Positions 44,404-54,978 of a stretch of 64,000 nt of DNA are shown here, piece by piece. The DNA is from Flavobacteriaceae bacterium UJ101 (lineage in GTDB: Bacteria; Bacteroidota; Bacteroidia; Flavobacteriales; UJ101). The translations under genes and the position numbers were made by a program. The DNA lies in NCBI GenBank assembly GCA_001880285.1, contig CP016269.1:2986501-3050500 (forward strand), read 5' to 3'. The notes beneath the pieces are model-generated. The model saw only the letters and a list, made by a program, of their open reading frames with translations. It did no database searches and was not told where the DNA came from. Each line of letters begins with the position of its first letter. Position 1 is the stretch's first letter.

Positions 44404-44513
44404 TTATTGATTATAACGATCTAGTTTTAAGTCATGGAAATCAAAGCTAAAATCTATATTTTCGGAAATTCCTTTCATTACAATGCTTTGGGCTATTCCA
44501 TTTTTACCTATAG
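44404..44513 (-). pseudogene. 3' fragment of serine hydrolase gene, cut off by transposon
   Basis: On the minus strand, 44513-44404 encodes the missing C-terminal end (GKNGIAQSIVMKG then NIDFSFDFHDLKLDRYNQ and TAA) of the serine hydrolase whose 5' part is at 53445-54978. It resembles the normal DUF3471-type end of such proteins. Joining 53451-54978, one CTATAG and 44404-44507 gives 1638 nt, exactly 546 codons including the stop. It is therefore a displaced gene end, not a separate gene. Confidence 0.85.
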
Positions 44514-44549
44514 GGCCTCAAGCCAAAAATGGGAGAAAATTTATAATAA
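44514..44549 (+). repeat. Left terminal inverted repeat of Tn3-family element
   Basis: 36 bp starting GGCCTCAAGCCAAAAATGGG at the outer end. The reverse complement is identical to 53409-53444. Adjacent outward is the target duplicate CTATAG. Confidence 0.9.
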
Positions 44550-44581
44550 AACATTTAATTGATTGAAATTCAATGTTTTAA
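44548..44581. terminator. Hairpin just beyond tnpA stop
   Basis: TAAAACATTTAATTG pairs with AAATTCAATGTTTTA with two mismatches. It lies between the tnpA stop and the left inverted repeat and probably ends tnpA transcription. Confidence 0.5.
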
Positions 44582-44587
44582 TATTAT

Positions 44588-47500
44588 TTATTCAAGTTTT
44601 AACTTTTGTATCTTGTTTAGATTAAATTGTAATTTATTACTAACTTTAAAATTATACTCTCCGTAAAGGTTTATATGATACCAAGTCATTACTGAACTTT
44701 GTTTTATTTGTTCTAAAGTAGTTTCGTATTCTTCTTTTTCTTTGATTTCAGAAAGTTTTTCAGATAAAAATAAATAGTTATAAAGTATAATAGAATTTTG
44801 AATGAGATGCCTACACCCTAATGCTAACTCCTGTTCTTCTTTTGTTCCGACCTTAAACTCTTGATTATTTCCAAAGAAAATAGCCTTGGCAAACTGATGG
44901 GATAATTCTACTTTATTAAGTTGTTTTTCTATCGATTGCCTTAATTCTACTTCTGAATAATACCGTAAAATAAAAATGGTTTTGTATATCTTTCCTAACT
45001 CTTTTAATCCTTTGTACAGAGGATTTTGTTTTGAATAGGAATTAAGTCTTCTTAAAATATCTGAAGCCTTGGAGTATTTTAACTTGATAGAACACAGTAC
45101 ACGTAGTATATTTTCCCATTGCTGTTCTAATAATTTGATATTAATATAACTGTCTACTTTTGAAGGAAGAATCTTATACTCCCTTTTTTCATAGTATTTT
45201 CGATTGTTTTCTTTAAAAGTGTACCGTTTTTGAGTATGCATCGTTTTAATTCGAGGAGCGAATAATATATCTAAAGCATTACAAATACCAAAAATCACTT
45301 CTGTATAGCCATGTGTATCTGAAGAATGAATGGTACTTTCAATATCTTCGTTATGCATTAATCCATCAAGTATAGAGCTTGCTTCCCTTTCAGAAGCAGT
45401 AATAACAGTGTTGTAAAACAATCTGTTTTTCTCATCTATAAAACTATAAGCCGTTACCCCTTTTCCATGACCAAAGTATTTGTAGGAGTATCGTGCATGA
45501 AGTGAAGGTACACTTACTCCAAACTTTTGACCATCACTTGAAGTGTGTAGTTCGTTTTCTCTTTCTATAAATAATTTAGAAAGTTCAAGTTCATCAGTCA
45601 TATCAATAATATTCTTATTAGCCTGGTCTAAATTTTCTTTGCTAAAGTACCATCTTACAGCATAATCTAATTTATCTTCTGTAATTCCTTTGGATATTTT
45701 ACCCATTTTTCTCACTCCAATATTGCATCCTAACCCAATAATAGAAGCAAATAACACATCGTTAGGAAGTTCTTGTTTGGAAGTCTTTCTACTGAAATGA
45801 GTAAAACAATCTGCTATATTTGTAAGAGGATGAAGCTGTGATAAAACATCGGTCAAAGATAAATACTGATCTTTGCCGTATAAATCAATTGGATTTACAA
45901 GTTCATTTTCTTTTGATTTTGGAGTACTAACCTTTGGTTTTCCGTCTTTATCAAATTTGATATGAGAATTCTCCTTTAATTTAATATTGGAACTTGTATA
46001 GTGATCCTCAAGCTCTTGTTTCATTTGAAGGATGAAAGCATTATAATCACCCAACTTTTCTAAATTAGCTCTATAAAGGTAGTTTTCTCTATGGGTATTG
46101 AAATCTTCTATATCAATCAAATACTCATCAATGAATTTATATTTCTCTGAGCTTATTAGATTTAAAGAACCCGCTTTTATATGCCTACATATTTCCTTTA
46201 CAAGGATTACTTTATATAAATGCATACCATGTTCTTTCATATCTTCTTTGACGGATTTTCTATCATTTCCATCAGATATAAAGTCCATAGGTGCATAATC
46301 ATTTAATTTACCGTTATGTTTTTTATAGAAATTAATGGCTTCCATAATCTTAGGATCAGAAGTAACTTCATTAAATTCAAGGTTTTTAATTATGGAGCTT
46401 ACTTTCTTTTGTAGTTTTAAGTAGCTTTTAGAAAGTTCTTTATAAATAAGCTTATTTTTAATGGTTAAAATATTAATAGGCTCTATTTTATTAAGTTCTC
46501 TTAGTAATAATGTCTCTAATGATTCAGATTCCATTGGAAATATTTCTTTGAGATGTATGATTTGTTCCGATTGATTATAGGATGATTTATACAAAATAGT
46601 ACGCGCTTGTTTACCTTCATCTCTAGAAGAACGAACTATGTTTTTAATATTGTTGAAGTTTTTCTTCTGATTGGAATATTTCTGGTTCGTCTGTTGTTCT
46701 ATTAGGTTGTTATTAGCATTTTGCTCGGCTTTGTTATAAAAGCTTTGATAGGAGGTTAAAAGAGTATCGATAAAATAGTCTTGTCTTAATCGGTACTGAT
46801 ACATAATAAAACAAATCAAATAGAGTCGTTTTAAGGAAGGATTTCGAATGGAATCGAACTGAATATGTTCGGCTTTGATAACCCAACTAGCATAATAGTT
46901 TAATAGCTCTTCGGATAATCCCATTTGATGAAGAGTGCTACCATAGCTTTGATAGAGGTCTTTTACAATTAAGAATTCTTTCATACTGGCTTGTATTTTT
47001 TTAGTGGCTTTACTTTGGATGGGTTTCTTGAGCTTGGTAATTAGATAGGGATTTTTAGCTGTTATTTTCTCATCTGTAGAAACAGGTAATGCAATAAGAT
47101 CATCTAGGGTTTTCTTTTTATCCTCGGTTAGAATTTCATCCAATTGATTTGTTAAATTCACCTCAAAAGCATTTAAAGCTTTACTGATGGTTTCAGCAAA
47201 AACATAATAACGAGGTTGTTCAACTTTATGTTCTTCAAGAAAATCAATTAATGAATAGAAAATGGCTTTGGGTTTTAATGAGGTTTTAACCAAAGCTTCT
47301 GCTTCTTTTTCAAAAGTAGGTTTAAAACTATTAAAATCACGATAGCCTAATATATCAAGGATTTTTTTGCGATGATTATATAATATTGTTCCATATTTAA
47401 AAATATTAATTTTATTATCAATATCTAACAATTTCGATACATGTTTAATATCTTCTTCATAGAATTGTTCTATATTAAAAAATTTCTTATTGGACTTAAA

Positions 47501-47671
47501 ATATCCGAGTTGTAAAATAAATCCTATTTGGGAAATCTTTTTTCTGAAATTCAACTTTTCAAAATCAGCACTTTTAAATAGAAAAAATGAATCTTTTTCT
47601 TTATCAGTTAATTTTATTGGATTTTCAAATTCTGAAATTTCACTTTCTTTAAGTAAATTTATTAATGGCAT
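44588..47671 (-). CDS. tnpA: Tn3-family transposase
   Basis: 1027 residues, near the usual 950-1030 of the family. The N-terminal DUF4158-like region is followed by the large catalytic DDE domain. The first Asp lies in TSSDGQKFGVSVPSLHARYSYKYFG near residue 715 and the second in HSSDTHGYTEVIFGICNALDILFAPRIK near 770. The Glu is expected in the helical region after RLNSYSKQNPLYKGLKELGK. HLIQNSIILYNYLFLSEKL near the end is typical. It should carry out replicative transposition through a cointegrate that TnpR resolves. Its start lies 157 bp from tnpR on the other strand. Confidence 0.95.
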   Translation of the reverse strand: MPLINLLKESEISEFENPIKLTDKEKDSFFLFKSADFEKLNFRKKISQIGFILQLGYFKSNKKFFNIEQFYEEDIKHVSKLLDIDNKINIFKYGTILYNHRKKILDILGYRDFNSFKPTFEKEAEALVKTSLKPKAIFYSLIDFLEEHKVEQPRYYVFAETISKALNAFEVNLTNQLDEILTEDKKKTLDDLIALPVSTDEKITAKNPYLITKLKKPIQSKATKKIQASMKEFLIVKDLYQSYGSTLHQMGLSEELLNYYASWVIKAEHIQFDSIRNPSLKRLYLICFIMYQYRLRQDYFIDTLLTSYQSFYNKAEQNANNNLIEQQTNQKYSNQKKNFNNIKNIVRSSRDEGKQARTILYKSSYNQSEQIIHLKEIFPMESESLETLLLRELNKIEPINILTIKNKLIYKELSKSYLKLQKKVSSIIKNLEFNEVTSDPKIMEAINFYKKHNGKLNDYAPMDFISDGNDRKSVKEDMKEHGMHLYKVILVKEICRHIKAGSLNLISSEKYKFIDEYLIDIEDFNTHRENYLYRANLEKLGDYNAFILQMKQELEDHYTSSNIKLKENSHIKFDKDGKPKVSTPKSKENELVNPIDLYGKDQYLSLTDVLSQLHPLTNIADCFTHFSRKTSKQELPNDVLFASIIGLGCNIGVRKMGKISKGITEDKLDYAVRWYFSKENLDQANKNIIDMTDELELSKLFIERENELHTSSDGQKFGVSVPSLHARYSYKYFGHGKGVTAYSFIDEKNRLFYNTVITASEREASSILDGLMHNEDIESTIHSSDTHGYTEVIFGICNALDILFAPRIKTMHTQKRYTFKENNRKYYEKREYKILPSKVDSYINIKLLEQQWENILRVLCSIKLKYSKASDILRRLNSYSKQNPLYKGLKELGKIYKTIFILRYYSEVELRQSIEKQLNKVELSHQFAKAIFFGNNQEFKVGTKEEQELALGCRHLIQNSIILYNYLFLSEKLSEIKEKEEYETTLEQIKQSSVMTWYHINLYGEYNFKVSNKLQFNLNKIQKLKLE

Positions 47672-47689
47672 TAATTAAGTCTTTATATT

Positions 47690-47828
47690 AATTAAAAAAA
47701 CAGTATATTTGGTATACGATGTTTAAATTACGATTTAATATACATTTTCTAGTAAAATATGTACATTATTTTAATTGTCACTTAAACGGTCGTTTAAATG
47801 ACATGATAATTGAAAAAATAAAAACTCA
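47690..47828. promoter_or_regulatory. Putative res site between tnpA and tnpR
   Basis: Two dyads of resolvase-binding size: TGTCACTTAAACG-GT-CGTTTAAATGACA (47776-47803, one mismatch) and a looser one with GTATAC and ATATAC ends at 47712-47743. The 157-bp divergent space is the normal place of res and of both promoters. Confidence 0.5.
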
Positions 47829-48452
47829 ATGAAAATTGGATACGCTAGGGTTTCAAAATCAGACGGAAGTCAACTTTTAGATTTGCAAATAGATGCATTA
47901 AAAAATGAAGGAGTAAATGAAGATTATATTTATCACGATACTACTTCTGGAACAAAAAGCAATCGAGAAGGATTAGATGCCTGTTTAAAATCCTTACGTG
48001 AAGGTGATGTTTTAGTGGTATGGAAATTAGATCGTCTGGGTAGAAATTTAAAGCACCTGGTTAATATCATTTATGATTTATCTGATAAAGGAATTGGATT
48101 TAAAGTTCTTTCAGGAAAAGGAGCAACTATTGATACAACAACATCTTCAGGCAAACTCATCTTTGGTATTTTTGCTTCACTAGCTGAGTTTGAAAGAGAA
48201 TTAATCAGGGAACGAACCATTGCAGGCCTTCGATCAGCTCGTGCGAGAGGAAGAAAAGGTGGAAGAAAGTTTAAATTAACCAAAGCTCAAGTTCGTATGG
48301 CACAAGCTGCTATGAAAAATAGAGATACCATGGTCAATGAATTAGCTCAAGAACTCGGAATTAAAAGACAAGCCTTGTATCGATATGTAGGCCCGAATGG
48401 AGAACTTAGAGAACATGGGCAAAAAGTATTAAATACTTCCAATCATTTTTAA
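47829..48452 (+). CDS. tnpR: Serine resolvase
   Basis: 207 residues. The catalytic serine is Ser9 in KIGYARVSKSDGSQ. WKLDRLGRNLKHLV, AEFERELIRERTIAGL and RKGGRKFKL are the standard small serine-recombinase blocks. The C-terminal HTH is MVNELAQELGIKRQALYRYV. It resolves the cointegrates of the Tn3-family element at the res site just upstream. Unusually, its stop codon is only 2 nt from the start of a histidine-kinase gene, so cargo expression may be tied to resolvase expression. Confidence 0.95.
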   Translation: MKIGYARVSKSDGSQLLDLQIDALKNEGVNEDYIYHDTTSGTKSNREGLDACLKSLREGDVLVVWKLDRLGRNLKHLVNIIYDLSDKGIGFKVLSGKGATIDTTTSSGKLIFGIFASLAEFERELIRERTIAGLRSARARGRKGGRKFKLTKAQVRMAQAAMKNRDTMVNELAQELGIKRQALYRYVGPNGELREHGQKVLNTSNHF

Positions 48453-48454
48453 AT

Positions 48455-49462
48455 TTGCGACAAATAATAAAAAATAGAAGACAGTTTTTGATTCATATAT
48501 TTATATGGGCAATATTGTATTCAGTTGTCCTGTTTTTTGTGTATTCAGAAGGTAATGAAATTACACTTAAAATTTGTTTGAGAATTACGTTTGGAGCTGT
48601 AGTTTTCTATACTAATTATAGTTTATTAGTGCCACATTTATTACTTAAGAAGAAGAAAACGCCTTATCTATTATCTATTATTGTTCTTTTAATAGTAACC
48701 TATTTGATCATTTCAAATGTATTCTATTTTGACTTTTATAGGAATCAAAATCTGTTAGATAAACGACCTTCAAAATTTATAATAATTATATTTTTCAATA
48801 CAGTGATAATTATTATAGGAACCATAATTAGAGTGTACGAACAATGGATAAAAAACGATAGGATTAAAACAGAAATTGAAGTTCAAAAAAATAAAACAGA
48901 ATTAGAAGTTCTTAAAAATCAACTAAATCCTCATTTTTTATTTAACTCTTTAAATAGTATTTATTCTTTAACCGTTAAAAAATCTAATGATGCACCAGAA
49001 GCCGTTATTATGCTTTCTGAATTAATGAGATATATGTTATATAAAGCGAATGAAAATAAAGTTTTACTTAAAGAAGATTTGCAATACATTGAGAATTATA
49101 TAAGGCTTCAATATATTAGAATAGCAAAAAATGAAAATGTGAAAATGAATATCAGCGGTGCGATTTCCATTCAAAAAATTAGTCCTTTATTATTTATATC
49201 CTATATAGAAAATGCTTTTAAATATGGAACAGACTTTAATGGTAATACTGAGATCAAAATAGATATTAGTGTTAAAGACGACGAATTGCAATTTAAGTGT
49301 ATTAACATAATAGGAAATAGGACTAAAAATAAGGAGAGCTCTGGTATTGGAATGCAAAATGCCAAAAATCGTTTAGAGTTATTATATCCTGATAAACATT
49401 GGTTAACAACAGTGGAAAAGGATAATAAATTTATGGTCAATTTAAAATTAAAATTAGATTAA
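48455..49462 (+). CDS. LytS-type sensor histidine kinase, transposon cargo
   Basis: 335 residues from a TTG start (48455). There is no ATG in this frame before the kinase domain, and the N-terminal residues RRQFLIHIFIWAILYS fit the family, so a rare TTG start is likely. Four membrane helices (about 12-128) are followed by a coiled linker and the His-kinase domain of the LytS/YehU type, with the phospho-acceptor His in NQLNPHFLFNSLNSIYSL and an N-box ATPase (SYIENAFKYGTD, GIGMQNAKNRLELLY). It has no extracellular sensor domain of note. It should phosphorylate the LytTR regulator encoded 1 nt downstream. Confidence 0.88.
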   Translation: MRQIIKNRRQFLIHIFIWAILYSVVLFFVYSEGNEITLKICLRITFGAVVFYTNYSLLVPHLLLKKKKTPYLLSIIVLLIVTYLIISNVFYFDFYRNQNLLDKRPSKFIIIIFFNTVIIIIGTIIRVYEQWIKNDRIKTEIEVQKNKTELEVLKNQLNPHFLFNSLNSIYSLTVKKSNDAPEAVIMLSELMRYMLYKANENKVLLKEDLQYIENYIRLQYIRIAKNENVKMNISGAISIQKISPLLFISYIENAFKYGTDFNGNTEIKIDISVKDDELQFKCINIIGNRTKNKESSGIGMQNAKNRLELLYPDKHWLTTVEKDNKFMVNLKLKLD

Positions 49463-49463
49463 A

Positions 49464-50177
49464 ATGCAGTGTGTAATTATAGATGATGAGCCATTGGCAG
49501 TAGATGTTTTAGAAACCTATATCAATCAAATAGAAGGTCTGAAAATTGTTGCCAAATGTAATAATCCATTAGATGCCATAACATTATTAAATAAACATCA
49601 AGTAGATTTAGTGTTTTTAGATATAGAAATGCCTAATTTAACAGGATTAGATTTGATAAAAACAGTTGACAATATTCCACAATTTATCTTTACAACAGCT
49701 TATCCACAGTACGCTTTAGAAGGCTTTGAATTAAATGCAACTGATTATTTGGTAAAACCTATTCCGTTTCAACGCTTTTTAAAAGCAGTTTATCGAGCTA
49801 AAGAGAAATATGAATTAGAACAGTCTATTACAACACAATCAAATACTTCTTCTGAAAAACCGAATAACGACTTTATTTTTGTGAAATCTGAATATGAAAA
49901 CATTAAGGTTAACTTACAAGATATAGAATACATTGAGGGATTAAAAGATTATATAAAAATTCATCTTAAAGATCAAGCAAAACCTTTATTAACATTATCA
50001 AGTTTTAAAGCAATCTTAGAAAAACTACCTTTAAATTTTATTCGAACACACCGTTCTTATATTGTTAATATTGATTGTATTAGGGCTTTGCAAAAATCTA
50101 ATGTTGTTATTAATAATATTCGTATTCCTATTGGAGAAACCTATAAAGAAGAAGTTTTAAAACGATTGGGTTTGTAA
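49464..50177 (+). CDS. LytTR-family response regulator, transposon cargo
   Basis: 237 residues. The receiver domain (1-120) has the acidic pocket DDEP, the phosphorylated Asp in VDLVFLDIEMPNLTGLDL and the Lys in DYLVKPIPF. The C-terminal LytTR DNA-binding domain (about 140-237) has NDFIFVKSEYENIKVNLQDIEYIEGL and FIRTHRSYIVNI. Its start is 1 nt after the kinase stop. It may control the cargo surface-protein genes at 50314-53204. Binding sites could not be identified with confidence. Confidence 0.92.
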   Translation: MQCVIIDDEPLAVDVLETYINQIEGLKIVAKCNNPLDAITLLNKHQVDLVFLDIEMPNLTGLDLIKTVDNIPQFIFTTAYPQYALEGFELNATDYLVKPIPFQRFLKAVYRAKEKYELEQSITTQSNTSSEKPNNDFIFVKSEYENIKVNLQDIEYIEGLKDYIKIHLKDQAKPLLTLSSFKAILEKLPLNFIRTHRSYIVNIDCIRALQKSNVVINNIRIPIGETYKEEVLKRLGL

Positions 50178-50313
50178 ATATATTTTCAACCTATTAGAAA
50201 AGTATCGATACATATTCCTTGTTTGTCGATACTTTTTTTTTGTAGGTATATCTTTTTTTTCTCTGTTTTAAATTGCCCATACATTTGATATTAAATATTA
50301 AAAATATACAACT

Positions 50314-51924
50314 ATGTTAACAGCATTGAATTCGAAAATAATATTAATAATAGGGACATTAGCTCTTTTATTAAGTTGCTCTGATGATGACGATAATACC
50401 GCAAACAACACAGCACCTAAAATCGAAAATCAAACATTTTCAATAACCAACGATGCATCTATTGGCACATCCGTGGGCACGTTAATTGCCTCAGATGTTG
50501 ATGGAGATACTTTAGCATACACCATAACTGGAGGAAATGACGATAACCTTTTTGCAATAGACAGTGCAACGGGAATCATTACCGTTTCAGGAGCACTAAA
50601 TCCAACCACAACATATACGTTAACTGTGCAGGCTAGTGATGGACAAAGCAATACGGATGCTACGATTACCATTAACTTGGTTGAAATAACAGTTACTTTA
50701 CCGCAAGGACCTTTGTCTCTTTTTTATGATGGAACTCTAATTGGAGCTGACTATTGGTCAGAAACCCCAGAAATTCTTTCAGCATCATATGGTTTTGGAG
50801 ATATTATTGGAGTGCCTGGTGCAGAAATCACTCAACAACTGGTTGAACAAGCAGGAGGTGCTTGGCTGTCTGATGTTAGTTGTGCTAACGGTAATACAGC
50901 ATCCTTAACTTCCACTGTAACGCAACAGCAATTAGCTAATGGGTATATATTAAAAACGCCTTATCAGCAGTTTTTAAAAGACGGTGCTTTGGGTTTAGAT
51001 GGCATACCTATTGTGTTCAGTTGGCCTGTATTAACCAATACAGTAGATATAAATGATGTTCAAGTTACATTAAACACAGGAGAAGTGGTTTCGCCAATGG
51101 CAATTGGTATGCTACCTAATTTTGAAAATAATGAACGTAACTGTATCGTAGTTTTTGGTGAATTTGGTAACCGACTGCCTAGTACAGACCCAGATGCACG
51201 TTTTTCTGTAAAAGTAGAAATCGTAACAGGTAACACGCCGTTAATGTTGGCTGGACCAAATAACCAGATGGTAAGCGCTGTGGGGCTATCTTGGGAAACC
51301 ACTACAAGCCCATACGATCCCAATAATGGCCCAAGATTGGTGGGCGCTAAACTGAACCACGTAGGAACACAAGCAATTGGTGAAGGTGTTAGCAATCCTA
51401 TTGTAAATTCACAATTGCCACAAAACGACGAATTTGATTTATATGATGGTGGCGATTTCCGACTTCGTGTACTAACTTCAGGTGGTTTTTCACCAGATGG
51501 AGTTCGTGGAGTGCTACCTACAGATTATGAACGTTTTTTTAGAATTCATGCTACAGATACAGACGGTTCAATAGTTTTAATCGAAGATGTCGGTGTGGAT
51601 TATCAAGTTGAAGGTGGTACCCTAAAAGTGTTGGGCTTATCAGATTTAGGAAACGTAGAAGGTTTGAATGGCACAGTATATGGAGATTGCTATATGGAAG
51701 ATAGAGACAATTACATAGACATTATCATTGAAGGTGATGAGGATGCAGCAAGAAACATTACATTCGTAGAAATTCCAAGTTTAGAAGGTGGTTATGATGC
51801 TTTTTATAACCCAGGCGGACCAGGAACAACACCATTTTCAAACGTAAACTACACACAACCAGGTCCAAGGGATTTAGAACCTGTAATTATAGCATTAGAT
51901 AATCCGATGCGTGTAACAAACTAA
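50314..51924 (+). CDS. Surface lipoprotein with cadherin-like repeat and unrecognised domain
   Basis: 536 residues. Signal peptide with lipid Cys22 (LALLLSC), followed at once by SDDDDN. An acidic run here is the Bacteroidota signal for export of lipoproteins to the cell surface. Residues 30-125 form one cadherin-like repeat (VGTLIASDVDGDTLAYTITGGND, FAIDSATGIITV, YTLTVQASDGQ). The following 400 residues (from LSLFYDGTLIGADYW) are a domain I do not recognise, with two Cys near residues 190 and 272. The coding sequence is visibly richer in G and C than the flanking genes, suggesting a different origin. Confidence 0.8.
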   Translation: MLTALNSKIILIIGTLALLLSCSDDDDNTANNTAPKIENQTFSITNDASIGTSVGTLIASDVDGDTLAYTITGGNDDNLFAIDSATGIITVSGALNPTTTYTLTVQASDGQSNTDATITINLVEITVTLPQGPLSLFYDGTLIGADYWSETPEILSASYGFGDIIGVPGAEITQQLVEQAGGAWLSDVSCANGNTASLTSTVTQQQLANGYILKTPYQQFLKDGALGLDGIPIVFSWPVLTNTVDINDVQVTLNTGEVVSPMAIGMLPNFENNERNCIVVFGEFGNRLPSTDPDARFSVKVEIVTGNTPLMLAGPNNQMVSAVGLSWETTTSPYDPNNGPRLVGAKLNHVGTQAIGEGVSNPIVNSQLPQNDEFDLYDGGDFRLRVLTSGGFSPDGVRGVLPTDYERFFRIHATDTDGSIVLIEDVGVDYQVEGGTLKVLGLSDLGNVEGLNGTVYGDCYMEDRDNYIDIIIEGDEDAARNITFVEIPSLEGGYDAFYNPGGPGTTPFSNVNYTQPGPRDLEPVIIALDNPMRVTN

Positions 51925-52345
51925 AAATAGTAACAATAACTGCACCTAACACGGTGTATAAACAATAGCGGTTTGAGTGAAAACTTAAACTGCTATTGCG
52001 TTTATTTAAGATGACCAGCAGACGCTAAACTCGTACTCTTTTTTAAATGCAAAAATCTCTATTATAGAAAAAAGACAGTAAGTGGGAATACAGGTTAGGG
52101 GTAAGAACATTTTGTAGCCCCAATTCCATAAATCAAAATAATTATAACGAAGCTTTTTTCTATCATATCGGATTATTATGCACAATCACGTTATGTTTTT
52201 TTAACTGTTAAATATGATTTGTAATAATATTGATAGGTACATTCATCTTTTTCATCTATACATTTTAAGTCTCTGTATAGTAAATTTTAATAGACTTGTC
52301 TTTTATAATACTTTTGACGGGTAGTGTAAAAGTAAAACAATAAAA
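51925..52345. other. 421-bp gene-free stretch inside transposon
   Basis: It begins with a 12-bp hairpin, CAATAGCGGTTT / AAACTGCTATTG (51963-51998, one G-T wobble), a likely terminator for the lipoprotein gene. The rest has no ORF worth reporting. Near its end is a TACTTTTG box (52309-52316, TAnnTTTG type), 30 nt ahead of the next start codon, and AT-rich sequence. This region could hold the LytTR operator. Confidence 0.5.
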
Positions 52346-52777
52346 ATGAAATCAATTAAAATAATAACCATACTAAGTATTATAGGAATGCTTTTTATAA
52401 TACAGACATTAAATGCTCAAAGAAGAGTAGTAGTAAAAACACCTCATAAAACGGTTGTAAGAACAACAAGTCCTAGAGTTGTTTATAAAAGACCTACCCC
52501 TGTTGTAAGAGCAGTAAGAACATTACCTGCTACAGCAGTCGTTGTAAAATATAATGGCGTTAGATATCACTATCACAATGGTCTTTATTATAGGTATAAT
52601 AGTGGACGATATGTTGTAGTTACAGCGCCAAAAGGCGTAAGAGTTAGTGTTTTGCCTGTTGGCTATAACAGAATTGTAATAGGAGGAAAACCCTACTTTT
52701 ATTTTAGAGGAGTCTATTATGTATCAGTCAACAATGGTTATAAAGTAGTAGAAGCGCCAGATAACATCATAGTTTGA
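52346..52777 (+). CDS. DUF6515-like secreted protein, transposon cargo
   Basis: 143 residues. A signal peptide (residues 1-25, ending in LNAQ) is followed by a basic Val/Arg-rich segment (RRVVVKTPHKTVVRTT) and a Tyr/Gly/Val-rich region (YNGVRYHYHNGLYYRYNSGRY, KPYFYFRGVYYVSVNNGYKV). Two related aromatic repeats are visible. I recall such proteins as DUF6515. Function is unknown, but the export signal and strand-rich repeats suggest an envelope or matrix role. It is followed 64 nt later by the Spy/CpxP-like gene, probably co-transcribed. Confidence 0.7.
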   Translation: MKSIKIITILSIIGMLFIIQTLNAQRRVVVKTPHKTVVRTTSPRVVYKRPTPVVRAVRTLPATAVVVKYNGVRYHYHNGLYYRYNSGRYVVVTAPKGVRVSVLPVGYNRIVIGGKPYFYFRGVYYVSVNNGYKVVEAPDNIIV

Positions 52778-52841
52778 AAAACAATTAAAAATAAAACTAT
52801 TATTTTAGAGTAACAATTAGATAATAATAAAAAATAGAAAA

Positions 52842-53204
52842 ATGAAATTATTAAAAAGTAGTATTGTAGTAGTGTTATTGTCATTTAGCACAATAGCTTT
52901 TGCACAAGATAGAAAACTTACAGAAGAACAAAAAGAGCAAATTAAAGAACAGTATTTTGAAAAATTGTCTTTATCCGAAGAGCAGAAACCACAATTTGAA
53001 GAAATTACAAATAAGTATGCACTTCAAATGAAAAAATTAAAAACTAGTGGTAAAAGTAAATTTGCCAAGTACAAGGAATTTAAATCAATAAAAAGTTCTA
53101 AAGACAAGGAGGTGAAAACATTACTTTCTTCTGATCAATACAAGATCTATGAAGAAACTCAAAAAGAAATACAAAAGAAAATGAAAGAAAAACGTAAAAA
53201 TTAA
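52842..53204 (+). CDS. Spy/CpxP-like periplasmic protein, transposon cargo
   Basis: 120 residues. A signal peptide (1-21, ending AFAQ) is followed by a helical, Lys/Glu-rich body with LTEEQKEQIKEQYFEKLSLSEEQK at residues 26-48, which resembles the LTxxQ helix pairs of Spy and CpxP chaperones. The C terminus is strongly basic (EIQKKMKEKRKN). It has no Cys or catalytic motif. It may be a periplasmic stress chaperone under the control of the element-borne two-component system. That link is inferred. Confidence 0.7.
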   Translation: MKLLKSSIVVVLLSFSTIAFAQDRKLTEEQKEQIKEQYFEKLSLSEEQKPQFEEITNKYALQMKKLKTSGKSKFAKYKEFKSIKSSKDKEVKTLLSSDQYKIYEETQKEIQKKMKEKRKN

Positions 53205-53268
53205 AATTTAAAACATAACACAGTTTTTTATTACCTCTAAACAACAATCGATAAATTGATACTTGATT

Positions 53269-53294
53269 AAAAACTCCTTTTCAGGAGTTTTTTT
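53269..53294 (+). terminator. Intrinsic terminator of cargo operon
   Basis: AAAAACTCCT / AGGAGTTTTT stem, loop TTTC, then a T-run. It ends the DUF6515/Spy-like transcript 65 nt after its last stop codon. Confidence 0.85.
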
Positions 53295-53329
53295 ATTGAT
53301 CCTATAAATTTTGGTTAAATAATAGGCTA

Positions 53330-53380
53330 ATGAAGAAACTATATTTAGTTATTTTAATTTCATTAATATTAAAAAATTAA
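53330..53380 (+). pseudogene. Signal-peptide-like stub near transposon end
   Basis: ATG at 53330 followed by a 16-codon frame coding for a typical signal-peptide start (MKKLYLVILISLIL) and then TAA. It sits 28 bp inside the right inverted repeat. It looks like the leftover start of a secreted-protein gene, but a chance ORF cannot be excluded. Confidence 0.3.
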
Positions 53381-53391
53381 AATATTGATTT

Positions 53392-54978
53392 TCATGTAAT
53401 TACAGGTCTTATTATAAATTTTCTCCCATTTTTGGCTTGAGGCCCTATAGAGAATGTAGCGAATGCATCAGCATTCATGTCACGATATTCCCATTTTATG
53501 GCAAAAGTATCTCTATCATATAAATACATTCTACCATTAAGTTTAGGTGATCGATACGATTTAAACCACAAATCACCTTTTCTATTATAGATTTCGATTT
53601 TCCCAAACCAAGGATCTTTATAAATACCTATATAGCTTTCTTTAGCAAAAGATTTGAATTTATTTTTCTCAACTTTTTCCCATACTTCCTTGGTAAAGGA
53701 ATCTTCTTTTTTAACTCTATTTTGAATATCTTTAGCTTTTTTAAGATAATCATATTTTTCTACATTAAGAAACGTATCTATGAGGGTTCTTGATACCACC
53801 GCATTTAACAAGTATGATTTCATTGAATTACTCATAACCACAATGCCTAATTCGATATCGGGAATCATAATAACTTCAGAAACCATTCCAGGTCCTAATC
53901 CACTATGGTTTACTTTTAAATTTCCCATAACATCAGATAAATACCATCCTAATCCATATCCCGAAAAGTGATTTTTATATCTGGAGTTTGATTTTTTTTT
54001 AATTGGAGTGTAAATGTGCCACATCTCATCCTGTTGTTCTTTAGAAAAAAGCTGTTTTTTTAAATCGTTACCATATTTTCCTTCATTTAGATGAGCTAGC
54101 ATCCAAATGCACATGTCTGAAGCACTAGATAAAATAGAACCATCCGCTCCGTTAACTCCAGAATTAATTTGAGTATGATTTATTGGTACTAAAGAATCTT
54201 GAAAAGAATGTGGTCTGGCCAATTTATCTAAATTTATTACTTCGCCTATCTCACTATATGTGTTTTTCATTTTTAATGGATTAATAATCTCCTTATGTAC
54301 AAACGATTTCCAACTTTGTTTACTTACTCTTGCAATAATTTCACCTGCAACCAAGTATAATAAATTATCATAATCATATTGAGTTCTAAAATCAGATGAA
54401 GGTTCAAAGTATTGAAAGCAAGTTAAAACATCTTTCATGGTGAAATCTGATCCATCAGGAAAAAACATAAGATCGCCAGCTCCTAAGCCTAGTCCACTTC
54501 TATGTGTTAAAAGATCCACTATAGTAAAATTATTGGTAACATAATCATTGTACATTTTAAACTCAGGAATAAACTTGACCACTTTATCTGTCCATTTAAT
54601 TTTCTTACGATCTACAAGAATGGCTAATGATGCAGTAGTAAAAGCTTTAGTATTTGAAGCTATGGCAAAAGGAGTGTCTTTAGTTACTTTTTCGTTTGTA
54701 TTCACAGATTTAATGCCATAACCTTTAGCATGTAGTACTTTACCATCTTTAACAACCCCAACCGCAAAACCCACTACTCCTTCCAAATCACCTATTGCTA
54801 TTTTCACTATACTATCGATTTGATTAGAGTTTATCTGCTTAATATCATCTTTATTGCTTACAAGTATTTTTTTATCTTGACTTTCTTGTTCAATGTATGT
54901 TGATGATATCTTATCATTTGTGTTCTTGCAAGAAATTAGACAAGCTAGACATATGGTCGTAATTAGTATTTCTTTCAT
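53392..54978 (-). CDS. Serine hydrolase lipoprotein (beta-lactamase-like), 3' end replaced by transposon
   Basis: The present frame is 528 residues. It has a lipoprotein signal (LACLISC) and a class C beta-lactamase-like domain with the SxxK motif in AIASNTKAFTTAS, a YxN motif in QYDYDNLLYLVAGE and an HSGLGPGM block, followed by a DUF3471-type C-terminal domain starting near FAKESYIGIYKDPW. The last 17 residues (from PQAKNGRKF) are encoded by the transposon end, and the true 34-residue C terminus lies 8.9 kb away at 44404-44507. It may still fold, because the catalytic part is intact. It overlaps the MarR gene by 4 nt (ATGA). Confidence 0.85.
   Translation of the reverse strand: MKEILITTICLACLISCKNTNDKISSTYIEQESQDKKILVSNKDDIKQINSNQIDSIVKIAIGDLEGVVGFAVGVVKDGKVLHAKGYGIKSVNTNEKVTKDTPFAIASNTKAFTTASLAILVDRKKIKWTDKVVKFIPEFKMYNDYVTNNFTIVDLLTHRSGLGLGAGDLMFFPDGSDFTMKDVLTCFQYFEPSSDFRTQYDYDNLLYLVAGEIIARVSKQSWKSFVHKEIINPLKMKNTYSEIGEVINLDKLARPHSFQDSLVPINHTQINSGVNGADGSILSSASDMCIWMLAHLNEGKYGNDLKKQLFSKEQQDEMWHIYTPIKKKSNSRYKNHFSGYGLGWYLSDVMGNLKVNHSGLGPGMVSEVIMIPDIELGIVVMSNSMKSYLLNAVVSRTLIDTFLNVEKYDYLKKAKDIQNRVKKEDSFTKEVWEKVEKNKFKSFAKESYIGIYKDPWFGKIEIYNRKGDLWFKSYRSPKLNGRMYLYDRDTFAIKWEYRDMNADAFATFSIGPQAKNGRKFIIRPVIT
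53409..53444 (-). repeat. Right terminal inverted repeat of Tn3-family element
   Basis: Reverse complement of 44514-44549 with no mismatch; on minus it starts GGCCTCAAGCC at 53444. It is followed outward by the second CTATAG (53445-53450). It forms the foreign 3' end of the hydrolase reading frame. Confidence 0.9.

Follow-up and report, generated by a model that had tools for sequence, protein, structure and literature searches.

A Tn3-family unit transposon in Flavobacteriaceae bacterium UJ101 that probably captured a chromosomal-type signalling and surface-protein locus

The 64,000-nt stretch of the Flavobacteriaceae bacterium UJ101 genome analysed here (contig CP016269.1, positions 2,986,501 to 3,050,500 of the forward strand; hereafter the window) contains, at positions 44513-53445, an 8,933-bp unit transposon of the Tn3 family with a transposase gene (tnpA), a divergent resolvase gene (tnpR), matching ends and cargo. 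We consider it likely, with good confidence, that this complete 8.93-kb element captured an ordinary Flavobacteriales chromosomal locus for signalling and surface proteins and inserted itself into the 3' end of a gene for a DUF3471 hydrolase. The observations that carry this reading are the boundaries of the element, its insertion, the homology between its cargo and a larger, non-Tn3 locus of genome G438 (and G285), the absence of TonB and GLPGLI genes from the transposon copy, and purifying selection on the cargo genes. The two ends, the site of insertion and a locus of the parental type are all documented, and the case shows how a Tn3 element can capture and prune a chromosomal sensing locus and place it behind its own resolvase gene.

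Ends, transposition genes and insertion site

The features that define the element and its target are as follows.

44513..44550, plus strand: left terminal inverted repeat, beginning GGGCCTCAAGCCAAAAATGGGAGAAAATTTATAATAA; outer ~38 nt identical to the right repeat
44588..47671, minus strand: tnpA, 1027-aa Tn3-family DDE transposase with a DUF4158 N-terminus (PF01526, 5.6e-118)
47672..47828, no strand: tnpA-tnpR intergenic region, candidate res site by position alone
47829..48452, plus strand: tnpR, 207-aa serine resolvase (PF00239, 1.1e-43)
53408..53445, minus strand: right terminal inverted repeat, providing the final codons of the interrupted hydrolase open reading frame (ORF)
53392..54978, minus strand: insertion target, serine hydrolase gene (PF00144/DUF3471), C-terminus replaced by the right repeat

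A repeat search returned 78-nt arms at 44508-44585 and 53373-53450 that are 88% complementary, with the outer ~38 nt identical, and this is the only such pair in the whole 3.07-Mb genome. One mark of the Tn3 family is a pair of related terminal inverted repeats at least 38-40 bp in length (PMC7157771), and the repeats of the window are of this kind. The repeat, GGGCCTCAAGCCAAAAATGGGAGAAAATTT, has homologues at the termini of Tn3 elements from Epilithonimonas bovis DSM 19482, Chryseobacterium sp. Bi04 and genome G1053. Because these ends are shared with relatives that also have a related transposase, positions 44513 and 53445 are settled as the true ends of the element.

The transposase gene is present in a single copy in the genome. 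Its product aligns full-length (residues 5-1019) with the Tn4430 TnpA structure 7qd8 (1.7e-73), and its SSDG and D-T-GYT motifs line up with those of the Tn4430 transposase. TnpR is at most 75% identical to plasmid-borne recombinases. Between the two genes, a perfect palindrome at 47782-47797 (TTAAACG-GT-CGTTTAA) is a candidate crossover site for the resolvase.

The site of insertion can be read from the hydrolase gene. As it stands, the ORF matches DUF3471 over positions 13-82 of 103 (43 bits), and the minus strand to the left of 44513 encodes its lost end. When the two flanks are joined, the match extends over positions 13-102 of 103 (64 bits), the reading frame is kept and the protein ends ...FATFSIGKNGIAQSIVMKGISENIDFSFDFHDLKLDRYNQ*. 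This in-frame restoration of a nearly complete DUF3471 domain indicates that the transposon jumped into the 3' end of the hydrolase gene. The sequence CTATAG is present on both flanks; because it is palindromic, the target duplication, 5 bp in Tn3-family elements, can here be called as 4, 5 or 6 bp.

Cargo and its parental-type cluster

The interval between tnpR and the right repeat holds the following genes and sequence features.

48455..49462, plus strand: sensor histidine kinase (PF06580, 2e-23; TTG start)
49464..50177, plus strand: LytTR-family response regulator (Response_reg and LytTR PF04397, 1.2e-16)
50196..50238, plus strand: strong intrinsic terminator 3' of the regulator gene, kept in G285 and G438 (z = -5.2)
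50279..50311, plus strand: conserved ATACATTTGATATTAAATA promoter-region motif, putatively regulatory
50314..51924, plus strand: cadherin-domain lipoprotein (one Cadherin domain, PF00028, 2.8e-11)
51963..51998, plus strand: terminator-like hairpin 3' of the lipoprotein gene (z = -5.6)
~52010..52223, plus strand: frameshifted remnant (3' part) of a TonB-type outer-membrane protein gene, by comparison with the parental cluster
52346..52777, plus strand: DUF6515 protein (DUF6515, 9.6e-21)
52842..53204, plus strand: small secreted protein, 'Spy-like' by eye (71-75% identity to homologues)

A first-pass annotation, made from the sequence alone, had described these genes as a mobile LytS/LytTR signalling and surface-protein set carried in place of resistance genes. 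The ORF coordinates and Pfam families agree with its gene placement, the homologous ends in relatives and the gene restored at the empty site establish the set as a Tn3 passenger, and no resistance or catabolic family is recognisable among the cargo proteins in Pfam or NCBIfam. The PF06580 kinase gene does adjoin a gene for a receiver-LytTR regulator, but the likeness to LytS lies in the kinase domain only: PF06580 is the sole Pfam match, and the LytS-type 5TMR-LYT sensor domain is missing. The DUF6515 label holds for a protein that is truncated, at 143 aa versus 187 aa in relatives. 'Spy-like', in the sense of the Spy/CpxP (LTXXQ) periplasmic chaperones, has no family support: neither the small protein of the window nor its G285 homologue has a Pfam match, and NCBIfam gives no relevant one.

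The lipoprotein contains the sequence LLSC-SDDDD, with an export-signal-like SDDDD motif directly after the lipobox cysteine. SDDDD is the export signal of surface lipoproteins in B. fragilis (PMC5080379), and the protein is therefore probably exposed at the cell surface. Its ~410-aa domain has no match in Pfam or in a sequence search of the Protein Data Bank (PDB), and structure prediction from the one sequence gave a predicted local distance difference test (pLDDT) score of 30. In a phylum-wide sample the C-terminal domain was found in the window alone; viral contigs yielded no relatives of the lipoprotein, and plasmids only a Legionella adelaidensis homologue with 42% identity to this C-terminal domain (L030:3425-5014). 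The annotation of the latter as a 'phospholipase' is doubtful because it has no Pfam match. Kinase matches in plasmids are limited to the generic kinase domain.

The same genes occur, at 71-90% protein identity, in clusters of G285 and G438 (the latter located via the kinase), two genomes of one genus that belongs to a different family from the host. The kinase is 83% identical to both homologues, the regulator 86-88%, and the lipoprotein 90% identical to that of G285. The G438 cluster reads kinase, LytTR regulator, a lipoprotein, GLPGLI protein, an outer-membrane protein of 901 aa that has a carboxypeptidase-like domain, DUF6515 protein, small secreted protein and cadherin lipoprotein. Its neighbours, named by eye from sequence, are agmatinase/arginine-decarboxylase-like and helicase genes, and no tnpA or tnpR lies within 28 kb around the cluster. 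The G285 cluster has additional genes for a TonB-dependent receptor and a DUF4249 protein. It is flanked by a broken fragment of a DUF4158 transposase immediately upstream and by a different, intact Tn3 immediately downstream, which offers a possible route of capture.

In the window, by comparison, the order is kinase and LytTR regulator (84% DNA identity), lipoprotein (91%), outer-membrane protein remnant, then DUF6515 and small protein (80%), with the TonB and GLPGLI genes absent. The G438/G285 locus is larger, differently ordered and furnished with a native promoter, and in G438 no Tn3 genes are nearby. A search without positive control found no full homologue of the outer-membrane gene elsewhere in the host genome. 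We infer that deletions in a larger chromosomal-type cluster gave rise to the window copy; the direction of pruning, from a large native cluster to the transposon copy, follows from the outer-membrane gene remnant and the truncation of the DUF6515 gene. Seen this way, the 'envelope-remodelling cassette' of the first-pass annotation is what reduction has left of an ordinary kinase-LytTR-outer-membrane cluster and nothing purpose-built; its mobility is well founded, its purpose and novelty were put too strongly.

Several further observations concern the G285 cluster and its kin. The intact Tn3-type element beside it (L027:5836-17151) has apparent sugar-uptake and catabolism cargo between tnpA and tnpR (ROK kinase, DeoR regulator, Gfo/Idh and SSS transporter). 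Upstream of the cluster, L026:11-1839 holds a pair matching PtuA and PtuB of the Septu anti-phage defence, the PtuA half beginning at the locus edge. Direct repeats around the cluster (near L026 4511 and 17730) are imperfect, and similar flanking sequence also occurs elsewhere in G438. In other genomes of G285's family (L085, L086, L088, L089 and L090), a kinase-LytTR pair of 50-57% identity comes after a group of conserved-looking genes for lipoproteins and small membrane proteins, without Tn3 genes.

Junctions and a possible regulatory circuit

The kinase start lies 2 nt past the tnpR stop. Homology of the window to G438 and G285 starts there, while G285 and G438 share the region further upstream, so the native kinase promoter has been lost. 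Downstream of the regulator, the ATACATTTGATATTAAATA region precedes the next cluster gene in the relatives and the lipoprotein gene in the window, where the lipoprotein ORF begins at the point at which the next gene of the G438 cluster begins. An octamer, ATACATTT, has three coding-strand copies in the G285 cluster, before the kinase gene, before the gene that follows the regulator and before the DUF6515 gene. The window keeps the two downstream copies, before the lipoprotein and DUF6515 genes. Having been picked out after seeing the data, ATACATTT can be offered as no better than a guess at the binding site of the LytTR regulator.

These arrangements are consistent with the following scheme. 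Capture would have stripped the kinase of its native promoter and placed it behind tnpR, so that the tnpR promoter would now drive both kinase and regulator. The kinase may sense an envelope signal and phosphorylate the LytTR protein, which could act at the conserved ATACATTT-type promoter regions before the lipoprotein and DUF6515 genes; altered expression of these would then change the cell surface. The passenger would spread with the transposon through replicative transposition and TnpR resolution.

Selection and history of the cargo

Compared with G285 and G438, all five cargo genes have ratios of nonsynonymous to synonymous divergence (dN/dS) of 0.13-0.29, which points to long-term purifying selection; such ratios are no proof of present function. 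Synonymous divergence (dS) is 0.22 for the lipoprotein gene versus 0.41-0.57 for the other four. Within that gene, the proportion of synonymous differences (pS) is 0.32 over the N-terminal 130 codons and 0.14 over the rest, which suggests that the C-terminal part was exchanged later. The position of the gene has also changed relative to the G285 and G438 clusters. Between G285 and G438 themselves, dS is 0.50 for the LytTR gene and 0.05 for the neighbouring kinase gene, a contrast that points to recombination within the native cluster.

It is accordingly plausible, if on the doubtful side, that an exchange with a G285-like lineage replaced all or most of the lipoprotein gene once the other cluster genes had been captured. 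The low dS of the gene and its altered place in the order are what such an exchange would leave, and dS between G285 and G438 is similar for kinase (0.05) and lipoprotein (0.07). However, the N-terminal pS is near that of the other genes, so partial gene conversion suffices, and G285 and G438 both have the gene within their clusters.

Alternatively, the cargo could be a relic, picked up by chance, that no longer has a function and is eroding away. The missing GLPGLI gene, the outer-membrane gene reduced to a remnant, the truncated DUF6515 gene and the lost kinase promoter all look like erosion. Set against them are intact ORFs for kinase, regulator and lipoprotein with dN/dS of 0.13-0.27, and conserved terminators, and we regard the relic account as unlikely. 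A very recent loss of function would be invisible in dN/dS, because the ratios span the whole divergence.

Capture of the chromosomal locus followed by the jump into the hydrolase gene thus remains our preferred reading, with several points weighing against it. The target-site duplication can be fixed to 4-6 bp by choice of repeat start and not to the base, and the uninterrupted hydrolase gene is a reconstruction from the joined flanks. The displaced lipoprotein gene, with a C-terminal part younger at silent sites, may mean that the cargo is a mosaic rather than the product of one capture. Finally, co-transcription of tnpR and kinase, the targets of the regulator and the signal of the kinase are steps that we infer.

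Related elements with other kinase-regulator pairs

A scan of the genome collection with TnpA only gave no relatives, and an alignment including the G196 fragment gave 21. The Bi04 loci (L028/L040) lie on the same contig as G196; the E. bovis element is locus L032 and that of G1053 is L103+L106. TnpA of these three elements is 50-60% identical to that of the window, and the nearest intact TnpA relatives found (E. bovis, G1053) are at 50% identity. The E. bovis element (10.6 kb) carries an OmpR-type pair with DUF2231, rubrerythrin, VIT1 and bestrophin genes. In the Bi04 element (9.9 kb; tnpA only a fragment) the pair lies beside tnpR and the other genes are DUF347, PepSY-like and TonB genes. 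The G1053 element (~19.5 kb) has a perfect 5-bp target duplication, ATTTG, and a pair beside tnpR followed by DgkA, sulfatase, PAP2 and resistance-nodulation-division (RND) efflux genes. The transposition proteins of Bi04 and G1053 are 99% identical whereas their kinases are 73% and their regulators 91% identical, which indicates different histories for transposition module and cargo.

A kinase/regulator pair is thus present in every one of the four elements that have cargo and known ends (window, E. bovis, Bi04, G1053), and in all but that of E. bovis it lies directly beside tnpR. Three distinct kinds of pair occur, LytTR/PF06580 in the window and two distinct OmpR/HisKA types in the other three. 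One might conclude that the pair is a selected part of the design of this clade, kept beside tnpR while distal genes are exchanged. We hold this to be improbable, given that the pairs come from different families, that Bi04 and G1053 share a homologous pair and are not independent, and that four elements are a small sample. Other relatives, moreover, have apparent metal genes or no cargo (L047): mer-like genes lie near tnpA in Marivirga atlantica and a Bacteroidetes metagenome-assembled genome, and an RND system in M. sericea, as read from sequence with ends not found. Two-component systems are also common beside metal and envelope loci.

A bolder form, in which this Flavobacteriales clade habitually joins a kinase/regulator pair to tnpR, the pairs differing and the arrangement being kept, and in which arrival would rewire envelope expression in the host, is more doubtful still. 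Should such pairs turn up repeatedly throughout the clade, Tn3 elements would be spreading regulatory circuits as well as resistance.

The first-pass annotation had allowed that the genes might be chromosomal in relatives and enclosed by the repeats through chance; the former is what G438 displays, and the latter is not what the ends display. That the repeats represent the 3' termini of two hydrolase genes, as the right repeat inside the hydrolase ORF might suggest, is exceedingly improbable: the left copy has no hydrolase homology upstream of it, and chance or twin hydrolase ends are ruled out by the recurrence of the repeat at other Tn3 ends and by the better DUF3471 match of the joined flanks.

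Comparison with known Tn3-family elements

We found no literature dealing directly with Tn3 elements with two-component cargo in Bacteroidota, or with LytTR regulators together with DUF4249/GLPGLI. In its transposition module the window element is like other Tn3-family unit transposons, with a DDE TnpA of ~1000 aa, a serine resolvase, related ends of ~38 bp and divergent tnpA and tnpR. Its passenger also occupies the position of bla in Tn3, between tnpR and the distal end, but it is a kinase-LytTR-lipoprotein locus and not a resistance gene. The E. bovis, Bi04 and G1053 elements share with it homologous ends, a related TnpA and a sensor kinase with response regulator; they differ in their OmpR-type regulators, in a resolvase only 30% identical to TnpR of the window and in their other cargo genes.

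Tn1546 belongs to the Tn3 family and thus also places a two-component system, vanRS, on such an element. This system accompanies the vanA cluster (PMC9484755). Unlike the pair of the window, vanRS controls glycopeptide resistance genes and comes from other kinase and regulator families, and no Tn1546-like van or other resistance genes are among the cargo families of the window.

Tn3 passengers are in any case very diverse (PMC7157771). TnXax1, a Tn3-family element of Xanthomonas, carries, in lieu of resistance, an envelope-acting passenger, the lytic transglycosylase gene mlt (PMC6304161), and in this it resembles the window element. It differs in its TnpS/TnpT resolution and its effector genes, and the available text of that report mentions no two-component passenger (PMC6304161). 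With VanRS on Tn1546 and mlt on TnXax1 (PMC6304161) as precedents, the element is a variant of an established type, and the novelty claimed for the cassette was too strong: a signalling and surface cargo is somewhat unusual for a Tn3 element, but it is no new kind of system.

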